This document shows positions 38,875 to 43,290 of a DNA stretch of 64,000 nucleotides, one piece after another. Position 1 is the stretch's first letter; the number at the start of each line of letters is the position of its first letter. The notes under the pieces are model-generated. The model had not been told where the DNA came from. It was given only the letters and a program-made list of their open reading frames with translations, and searched no databases. Location: contig DVKR01000028.1 in the NCBI GenBank assembly GCA_018715935.1, positions 1-64,000 on the forward strand. The letters run 5' to 3'. The stretch is from Candidatus Aphodovivens excrementavium (lineage in GTDB: Bacteria; Actinomycetota; Coriobacteriia; Coriobacteriales; Eggerthellaceae). Made by a program: the position numbers and the translations under genes.

Positions 38875-39249
38875 TTATTTGAGGTCAAGCGACTTGATAT
38901 ACGTTACCCATTTTTCGAACGATGCGTCGCTTATCGCATGCTCCATCATGCAGGCCTCTTTATCGGCCTGCTCCTCAGGTATCCCAAGCGCCTTCGACAG
39001 AAACGTGAACAGCAGATGGTGCCTGTCTAGCACCGACTGCCCGTAAGAGTACCCTTCTTCGGTAAGCGTGATGTCTCCGTAGTAGGGCTGATCAACCAGG
39101 CCTTTTTCCTTGAGAGCGTTTACCGCCTTGTTGACCGACGCCTTCGACACTCCCAGCTTCGACGCTACGTCAACCGACCGAATAGGCGTGGTGGGGGTGC
39201 CGCCTAGCATCACGATTGCCTCAAGATAGTCCTCGTGGGATTTAGACAT
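38875..39249 (-). CDS. DtxR-family metal-dependent repressor
   Basis: This 124-residue short-form repressor has a winged helix (SVDVASKLGVSKASVNKAVNALKEKGLV, about 25-52) and a dimerisation domain with metal ligands Asp7, Glu10, His77/His78, Cys100, Glu103 and His104. The C-x-x-E-H pattern matches the iron-sensing DtxR type, while Glu10 is more like MntR; the SH3 domain is absent. The start follows GGAG. It lies downstream of the feo genes, which carry GGTTAAC-type boxes resembling DtxR sites, so it probably represses them when iron is plentiful. Confidence 0.9.
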   Translation of the reverse strand: MSKSHEDYLEAIVMLGGTPTTPIRSVDVASKLGVSKASVNKAVNALKEKGLVDQPYYGDITLTEEGYSYGQSVLDRHHLLFTFLSKALGIPEEQADKEACMMEHAISDASFEKWVTYIKSLDLK

Positions 39250-39599
39250 CTTCTCCAAGAAGATCACCCCTTCTGAGCGCGAAAAACAGGTAACCGGAAC
39301 CGGTGTTTCGATGATCATATCACGCCCACAGAGAAAAGGAGCTGAGCAGGCAGACAAAACCCCGTTTCCCGAATGGCCAATCCGCCGAGCGCTCAAGCGA
39401 CCGCCTTCCGCCCCCACCTTCTGTCCCCAGGGGCTTTCCCCAGTTCGATAGGGCGGCGTGCGTTCAACCTTCCGCCCCACCGCCTTCTGGCGCCAGGGGT
39501 TTGCGCGAGAATAAGACGGCGCTGCGGCAAGAACGCCGCATGATCGGACAGCATCTGACCCAAGGGGTCTACGTGAGAAAAAGAAGTTTACTTAAGAAA

Positions 39600-39761
39600 A
39601 AGAAAGAGCCAGCGAGGGAGAGGGGGAGACCCTCGCTGGCTTTTGGGTTGTGGTGAACGGCCAGACGAGAAAAAACCTTCACCACCGAGTCAACAAAGAG
39701 AGGAGGTTTCAGCAAGACGAGCTTGGCGCGTTCCTTCCGGCGTCGACCGCCTTGCTGACAT
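39600..39761 (-). ncRNA. Candidate iron-regulated small RNA or leaderless micro-gene
   Basis: A good promoter (39767-39795) overlapped by DtxR-type boxes directs transcription leftward to the strong terminator at 39608-39644, giving an RNA of about 160 nt with no recognisable gene. The predicted start falls on an ATG (39759-39761) that opens a 23-codon frame ending at 39690, so a leaderless peptide is an alternative. Promoter, boxes and terminator are seen directly; the transcript and its role are inferred. Confidence 0.5.
39608..39644 (-). terminator. Strong bidirectional intrinsic terminator
   Basis: An 11-bp perfect stem, GCCAGCGAGGG and CCCTCGCTGGC, is followed on the minus strand by TCTTTCTTTTTCTT and on the plus strand by TTTT. 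It separates the feo region from the DtxR-family gene. Confidence 0.9.
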
Positions 39762-39766
39762 TTGTT

Positions 39767-39809
39767 ATCTTAGGTTAACTCTCCTGCTACGTCAAGAAGT
39801 TTACCTAAG
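39767..39809 (-). promoter_or_regulatory. Promoter overlapped by paired DtxR-type boxes
   Basis: On the minus strand, TTGACG (39790-39795) and TAAGAT (39767-39772) are 17 bp apart, close to consensus. CTTAGGTTAACT (39769-39780) and AGTTTACCTAAG (39798-39809) form an inverted pair with one mismatch, flanking and overlapping the promoter. The TTAGGTTAAC core resembles half of the known DtxR box. Repression by iron is inferred. Confidence 0.7.
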
Positions 39810-39810
39810 T

Positions 39811-40026
39811 TTACAATTTCTTCACAAGCGCTGCGCGTTCCATGTCGGCAACCATCTTGTCGACAGCGGAGCAAGAGGAGCACCCTCCCGCCTTCCCGCA
39901 CGAGTCGCACGTCCCTCCGGAATCGCACAGGCCGCGCCTGACAATACGCCGCACCGCAAGGAAGGCAAGAGCGACTACCGCCAGCAGTACAACCAACGAT
40001 GAGAAGTTAAGATCTAAAGGAGCCAT
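39811..40026 (-). CDS. FeoB-associated Cys-rich membrane protein
   Basis: This is a 71-residue protein. One N-terminal membrane helix (LVVLLAVVALAFLAVRRIV) is followed by a Cys-rich segment (CDSGGTCDSCGKAGGCSSC) with five Cys and a short helix. This matches the small proteins encoded after feoB in many anaerobes and thought to assist ferrous iron uptake. It lies about 130 bp after feoB on the same strand. The biochemical role is not established. Confidence 0.88.
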   Translation of the reverse strand: MAPLDLNFSSLVVLLAVVALAFLAVRRIVRRGLCDSGGTCDSCGKAGGCSSCSAVDKMVADMERAALVKKL

Positions 40027-43200: not shown

Positions 43201-43212
43201 GCGTTCACCCCT

Positions 43213-43290
43213 AAGGTTAACCTTTTCTAACAAACGCATGATAACGCTAACAGTCAGAAAATGGAAGCTTAGGTTAACTTTTTTTGTCAA
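43213..43290 (-). promoter_or_regulatory. feo operon promoter region with two DtxR-type boxes
   Basis: AAGGTTAACCTT (43213-43224) is a perfect palindrome close to the start codon. CTTAGGTTAACT (43268-43279) repeats the same core. A consensus TTGACA (43285-43290, minus strand) stands just upstream, although no good -10 box is found 16-18 bp from it. A weaker related sequence, CCTAAAGTTAAC, lies before feoB (42519-42530). Regulation by iron is inferred from motif and neighbours. Confidence 0.65.

Follow-up and report, generated by a model that had tools for sequence, protein, structure and literature searches.

The window, that is, the whole 64,000-nucleotide stretch of DNA that was analysed, belongs to an Eggerthellaceae genome of 2.08 Mb. 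Read along the minus strand, the locus consists of feoA, feoA, feoB and a FeoB-associated gene; then comes a stretch without genes, and after it a DtxR-family gene. The FeoB-associated gene (39811–40026, minus strand) putatively encodes a Cys-rich protein; its PF12669 match of 21.1 bits is below the 27-bit cut-off. The DtxR-family regulator gene (38875–39249, minus strand) was recognised by PF02742 (E 5e-16) and PF01325 (E 2e-10); its start codon is uncertain, at 39249 or slightly upstream. Elsewhere the window holds an ordinary bacterial small SRP RNA gene (RF00169; 13084–13177, minus strand).

In the gene-free stretch, all on the minus strand, a −35 hexamer TTGACG (39790–39795) and a −10 hexamer TAAGAT (39767–39772) are separated by a spacer of 17 bp. 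Two DtxR-type boxes straddle this promoter. The distal box, the near-palindrome GTAAACTTAGGTAAAC (39799–39814), lies upstream of the −35 hexamer and is overlapped by the stop codon of the FeoB-associated gene, and the proximal box, GTTAACCTAAGATAAC (39764–39779), overlaps the −10 hexamer. Transcription is predicted to start at 39761–39759, coinciding with an ATG, and to end at about 39598, giving a small RNA of about 164 nt with its own promoter and terminator (39598–39761, minus strand). The intrinsic terminator (39607–39641, minus strand) has a 12-bp stem with a C-rich loop, UCUCCCCCUCU (39629–39619), and is followed by a U-rich tail to about 39596; it was missed by the terminator scan because its loop is 11 nt long. 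The initial annotation had described a promoter with a 17-bp spacer, two straddling boxes and a strong terminator between the feo and dtxR genes, and all of these are present as placed. By itself the promoter pattern is weak evidence, with 5 sites against 3.2 expected in the 8 kb around it.

The predicted 164-nt RNA folds with −63.5 kcal/mol (z = −4.0 against shuffled sequences), forming a 5' hairpin and a middle hairpin ahead of the terminator. The middle hairpin, P2 (39650–39686, minus strand), has 12 consensus pairs, 8 of them with compensatory changes, and 98.5% of its cells are paired. Its loop carries the predicted seed CUCGUCUG (39662–39669, minus strand), which is invariant in all 29 aligned copies. 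The variable 5' domain contains CCUCCUCUC (39698–39706, minus strand), a patch resembling an anti-Shine-Dalgarno sequence that is unpaired in the predicted fold; CCUCC or CUCCUC occupies this position in many homologues, though not in all. A 5' closing stem, GUCAGC/GCUGAC, was seen in several members; it is not conserved and is not claimed here.

A DNA similarity search found related sequence in 40 of 140 genomes of the family. Thirty loci, one per genome, were examined in full; all had the same layout, with promoter, boxes, hairpins and terminator recurring. Covariation was assessed in an alignment of the 3' part of the RNA from 29 copies. Standard pairs made up 97.8% of the pair cells, and compensatory changes were found in 20 of 24 pairs, including every one of the 12 terminator pairs. 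None of 500 shuffles reached the observed level and slid structures scored far lower. A covariance model, run on 400 genomes of the class, detected the RNA at E ≤ 0.01 in 61 from Eggerthellaceae, of which two or three are marginal; six matches outside the family scored about 23 bits and resembled noise. Within the class genomes that the search covered, the family model is confined to Eggerthellaceae. A genome can have as many as three copies. That the gene-free stretch encodes a small RNA conserved across Eggerthellaceae is strongly supported by these sequence comparisons.

The promoter is shared by the relatives as well. TTGAC recurs in most of the homologous loci, and TAnnnT is found at the same place as the −10 hexamer, a recurrence that is partly by construction since a loose pattern was used to find it. 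In 24 of the 30 loci the best upstream box lies 35–38 or 47–48 bp from the proximal box; these two spacing classes differ by one helical turn, the pattern expected of proteins bound to one face of the DNA. The boxes are 16 bp long and of the type GTWAACCnnGGTWAAC, whereas the classic DtxR/IdeR operator is of the 19-bp TTAGGTTAGSCTAACCTAA type. The 14-mer TTAGGTTAACCTAA, with three mismatches allowed, gave a match at feoA and none at the RNA promoter. Of the earlier description of these sequences as DtxR-type boxes, the pair itself stands, but the similarity of the boxes to one another and to the feo boxes (GTWAACC..GGTWAAC type) is closer than that to the 19-bp DtxR/IdeR consensus. The 2.08-Mb genome has three occurrences of the box core GTTAACCTAA: at the small RNA, ahead of the feoA-feoA-feoB operon within its promoter region (43269–43278, minus strand) and in one coding sequence, the translation of which resembles mraY. 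By sequence, then, the putative iron-repressor site is shared between feoA and the RNA and is otherwise seen in a single coding sequence. The feoA promoter region (43212–43278) contains two GGTTAACC-centred boxes, which are likely sites of the RNA promoter's repressor too. Directly upstream of the distal box (39814–39826, minus strand, in the window) many copies, paralogues included, carry a conserved TGTGRAGRAATTG; in the window it forms the end of the FeoB-associated gene, and paralogous copies keep it next to different upstream genes.

The sequence AGACGAG is the complement of the CUCGUCUG loop. When sampled translation-initiation regions were ranked, the rubrerythrin gene stood out; about 35 nt ahead of the ATG, this gene of the own genome has AGACGAGAAA, which matches the loop perfectly. 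AGACGAG followed by a ribosome-binding site and ATG gave 14 matches in the own genome, against 5 for a reversed-pattern control, and 25 against 4 in a second genome of 3,632,260 bp (G053), which from its size we take to be that of Eggerthella lenta DSM 2243. This control is weak because a reversed ribosome-binding site is not enriched before ATG, and functional class and genomes lacking the RNA were therefore used for comparison instead.

Ten of the 14 own-genome matches precede genes for iron or Fe-S proteins, namely rubrerythrin, seven molybdopterin oxidoreductases (an Fe4S4 domain was detected in all seven), an Nbp35/Mrp-type iron-transfer NTPase and the small subunit of a NiFe hydrogenase. 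The tagged genes of G053 include those for rubrerythrin, NiFe hydrogenase, ferredoxin, at least four Mo oxidoreductases and a SufC-like ATPase, the latter named from its sequence, Pfam giving ABC_tran alone. A moaA gene is also among those preceded by AGACGAG. The distance from site to ATG is 13–42 nt.

A k-mer scan of the 40 nt before the start codons of Mo/Fe-S genes and of sampled background genes gave GACGAG as the top 6-mer in both genomes, and the scan for one letter more gave AGACGAG as the top 7-mer in both. Within 40 nt, AGACGAG was present in 6 of 17 Mo/Fe-S genes against 2 of 284 background genes in the own genome, and in 8 of 30 against 3 of 334 in G053. Within 60 nt these counts were 8 of 17 against 3 of 289 other genes (p 2e-9) and 8 of 30 against 4 of 336 (p 3e-7), respectively. 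One of the three background carriers in the own genome is the rubrerythrin gene and one of the four in G053 is the SufC-like gene. The background is a gene sample, about a sixth to a fifth of the own genome and 11% of G053; genes were called by a hexamer-based method, with a rule to choose the starts in unannotated genomes. The tag is absent from about half of the Mo/Fe-S genes.

Among 20 species that bear the RNA, 14 have AGACGAG in the 5' region of rubrerythrin, usually close before the ribosome-binding site and with differing flanks; it is missing in four, and two more have near-variants. We also compared unselected matches to CAGACGAG plus a ribosome-binding site, taking 20 from four RNA-bearing genomes and 20 from four genomes in which no RNA was detected. 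Iron, Fe-S or Fe-S-associated genes followed 8 of the 20 in the former and 1 of the 20 in the latter (p 0.01); the eighth case is a LUD-domain gene, and leaving it out gives 7 of 20 (p 0.02). Some CAGACGAG matches are antisense to the RNA itself and were rejected as targets (e.g. G066:C1:3001617-3001672). Judged on these sequence patterns, the AGACGAG signal is specific to iron genes, the seed being complementary to translation-initiation regions of iron proteins.

Predicted co-folding of the RNA with its candidate targets gained −12 to −27 kcal/mol, values that stand without a background comparison. Generic anti-Shine-Dalgarno targeting was rejected: against the translation-initiation regions of 290 and 337 sampled genes, the loops reached no better energies than shuffled loops did, so the choice of target would rest on the seed. 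Permuted seeds, run on 20% genome samples, showed no overall excess of the tag-plus-ribosome-binding-site pattern; with only one or two matches, this result is uninformative.

A structurally different short RNA was found in four genomes without a first-form match (G046, G048, G051 and G070). Its hairpin has the loop CACCUCCUUCUCGUCUGC, where an anti-Shine-Dalgarno sequence is contiguous with CUCGUCUG; it also has a terminator, and its promoter carries TTAGnnnnnnCTAA-type boxes. This second form was found via its loop and then modelled as R2; a relaxed search of the first-form-negative genomes with the first-form model, R1, returned noise only. The R2 model detected the second form in eight genomes from five genera, all Eggerthellaceae (loci L321–L324 and L341–L348), and these eight do not overlap with the first-form genomes. 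In G051 and G046, sites were seen ahead of a gene for a multi-ferredoxin (Pfam) and, as named from sequence alone, genes for a putative Fe-S subunit and an aldehyde:ferredoxin oxidoreductase. In the four genomes first mentioned, CAGACGAG matches antisense to the second-form RNA were discarded as targets. A thrC-like gene adjoins the second form at two loci (L323 and L324).

Taken together, the locus very likely encodes a stand-alone, trans-acting, iron-sparing small RNA repressed by a DtxR-family protein. This reading, proposed by the initial annotation as an RNA of the RyhB kind, draws its support from the covariation, the conserved operators, the stand-alone copies described below and, above all, the predicted set of Fe-S targets. 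When iron is plentiful, an Fe2+-loaded DtxR-family repressor, probably the product of the adjoining gene, would occupy both boxes and block the RNA promoter, as at feo. When iron falls, the RNA would be made and would end at its own terminator. The C-rich P2 loop, with its invariant CUCGUCUG, would then pair with AGACGAG at 13–42 nt before the start codons of messages that encode iron-rich proteins, such as Mo/Fe-S oxidoreductases, rubrerythrin, NiFe hydrogenase and ferredoxin. The pairing may extend over the Shine-Dalgarno sequence via the CCUC of the loop, or via the 5' anti-Shine-Dalgarno patch and the terminator loop; it would block translation and so spare iron. In sum, the RNA most likely shuts the tagged iron-enzyme genes down when iron is scarce.

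Among the alternatives, the one that fares best keeps the small RNA but gives it a different remit, in which it would respond to Mn2+ or redox through another regulator and its Fe-S targets would reflect anaerobic respiration. DtxR-family proteins include Mn sensors, and the protein encoded here could sense Mn2+; the Mo/Fe-S targets are respiratory, and a further conserved element, TGTGRAGRAATTG, lies upstream of the distal box. On the other hand, the box core marks the promoter of feo, for ferrous iron, and little else in the genome, and what the rubrerythrin, ferredoxin, SufC-like and Nbp35-type targets have in common is iron, not respiration. We regard this alternative as unlikely.

Still less probable is that AGACGAG is a DNA element or is read by a protein, the match to the RNA loop being coincidental or the RNA serving to titrate that protein. 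Such a tag might belong to anaerobic-respiration genes, and the invariance of the loop is stricter than pairing with varied targets might need. Against this, AGACGAG adjoins the ribosome-binding site, the structurally different second form retains CUCGUCUG, and where both forms are absent from a genome the tag has no Fe-S bias beyond the 1 in 20 given above.

We attach about the same low probability to a third possibility, that the RNA is a cis-acting leader controlling the dtxR gene downstream, either a riboswitch or an attenuator, with the terminator serving for attenuation. Many copies do lie directly upstream of a co-directional dtxR-family gene, and one second copy precedes feoAB, but several have neither dtxR nor feo among the adjoining genes. 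At five loci (L100, L106, L107, L108 and L111) the neighbours are unrelated while the RNA and its U-tailed terminator are kept, and in the first four of these the boxes are visible. The terminator and dtxR lie about 350 nt apart in the window, and in other species a TGTGGTACCAT-like extended −10 recurs right before dtxR, suggesting a separate promoter. Moreover, every copy has a strong terminator stem, no alternative antiterminator was seen in them, and the complement of the loop recurs upstream of unrelated Fe-S genes. On account of the stand-alone copies we reject a dtxR leader or attenuator as the main function; they also speak against the possibility, raised at the outset, that the transcript is merely the leader of the DtxR gene. 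The promoter and terminator in 30 loci, together with these copies, point to an independent transcription unit. Second RNA copies were observed directly upstream of a second feoA-feoB locus in G053 (L096; contig 1, 2736.2 kb) and before a second dtxR gene in other genomes (L098, L099, L102 and L103). The two predicted copies of G053 span about 727.5–727.7 kb and 2736.2–2736.4 kb. In G067 a third copy, diverged in sequence, is located upstream of genes for a DUF6110 protein and a P-type ATPase (L112; contig 1, 1323.9 kb).

Finally, a leaderless or short-leader peptide of 23 codons from 39761, which the initial annotation had offered as a second possibility, is highly improbable as the product: the window and many relatives have an ATG at the predicted start and AACAAATGTC is well conserved, but 7 of the 30 loci have no ATG, GTG or TTG there, the frames elsewhere vary in length, the shortest having 5 codons and the longest 100 or more, without a common value, and conservation sits in the pairs and loops of the RNA. 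Over the 30 loci, where a small protein gene would keep its start and reading frame, it is the RNA structure that is kept and not the frame.

The preferred reading, an iron-sparing small RNA, has several known counterparts. RyhB and PrrF of Proteobacteria are Fur-controlled RNAs with the same iron-sparing function, and PrrF is duplicated, like the Eggerthellaceae RNA in several genomes; no RyhB-type family of Rfam matched the RNA in the window or in the homologous loci. Both RyhB and PrrF are Hfq-dependent (PMC9410917). FsrA of Bacillus subtilis is likewise iron-repressed and binds Shine-Dalgarno sequences of iron-enzyme mRNAs with a C-rich motif (PMC9410917), but it is controlled by Fur and works with the FbpABC chaperones, and no Rfam match connects it with the RNA described here. 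The iron-repressed IsrR of Staphylococcus directs several exposed C-rich regions at Shine-Dalgarno regions, has two repressor boxes at its promoter and targets the Fe-S/Mo enzyme genes fdhA, narG, nasD and gltB2 (PMC9410917). It differs in being under Fur instead of DtxR control, in being an AT-rich Firmicute RNA and in having no specific CUCGUCUG seed. Like the present RNA, MrsI (ncRv11846) of Mycobacterium is an actinobacterial, highly structured iron-sparing RNA; it is about 100 nt long, with a site for IdeR, a DtxR-family protein, near its start, an apical-loop seed of 6–8 nt and targets that include a NiFe-hydrogenase maturation factor (PMC11188477, PMC9410917). At the level of published descriptions no homology was seen, and seed, targets, neighbours and lineage differ.

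A search of Rfam 15 gave no family at or above its gathering score at the window locus or in seven homologous loci. The best sub-threshold scores were those of ftsZ-DE (28 of 72.2 bits) and of the alphaproteobacterial RNA ar14 (RF02344; 27.1 bits). The latter and ar7 (RF02342; 20.4 bits) show weak covariance similarity and share a general hairpin layout, but they belong to another lineage and the scores are far under their gathering scores of 58.8 and 60. Our literature search on small RNAs of Eggerthella, Gordonibacter and Coriobacteriia turned up no relevant work, and no report of an iron-sparing small RNA in this class. The RNA would thus act like RyhB, PrrF, FsrA, IsrR and MrsI while matching no described RNA family found here. 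New as well is the occurrence of the seed complement as the top 7-mer before the start codons of Mo/Fe-S oxidoreductase genes in two genomes.

On balance we favour the view that this is a new small RNA family, with two forms and one seed, that lets gut Eggerthellaceae (Eggerthella, Gordonibacter, Paraeggerthella, Ellagibacter and Enteroscipio, among others) switch off their many Mo/Fe-S reductases when iron in the gut is low. It would be a second actinobacterial case, next to MrsI, of a DtxR-family regulator working through a small RNA, and it would come from the Coriobacteriia, a class rich in gut bacteria for which there is little RNA biology. The Mo/Fe-S reductase class performs transformations of catechols, polyphenols and drugs. 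If the view is true, iron supply acts on the enzyme class behind the drug and polyphenol chemistry of Eggerthella and its relatives, and local iron could set xenobiotic metabolism via one RNA. The targets are predicted in concrete terms, by a 7-nt tag ahead of the genes for rubrerythrin, hydrogenase, ferredoxin and many Mo/Fe-S reductases, and two RNA architectures with one seed offer a clear evolutionary test. In two of the stand-alone copies, from genus g2 (L107 and L108, in G001 and G002), the loop reads CUCCUCGUCUCGC and the context of the seed is slightly altered, which would permit a natural test of co-variation between seed and site.
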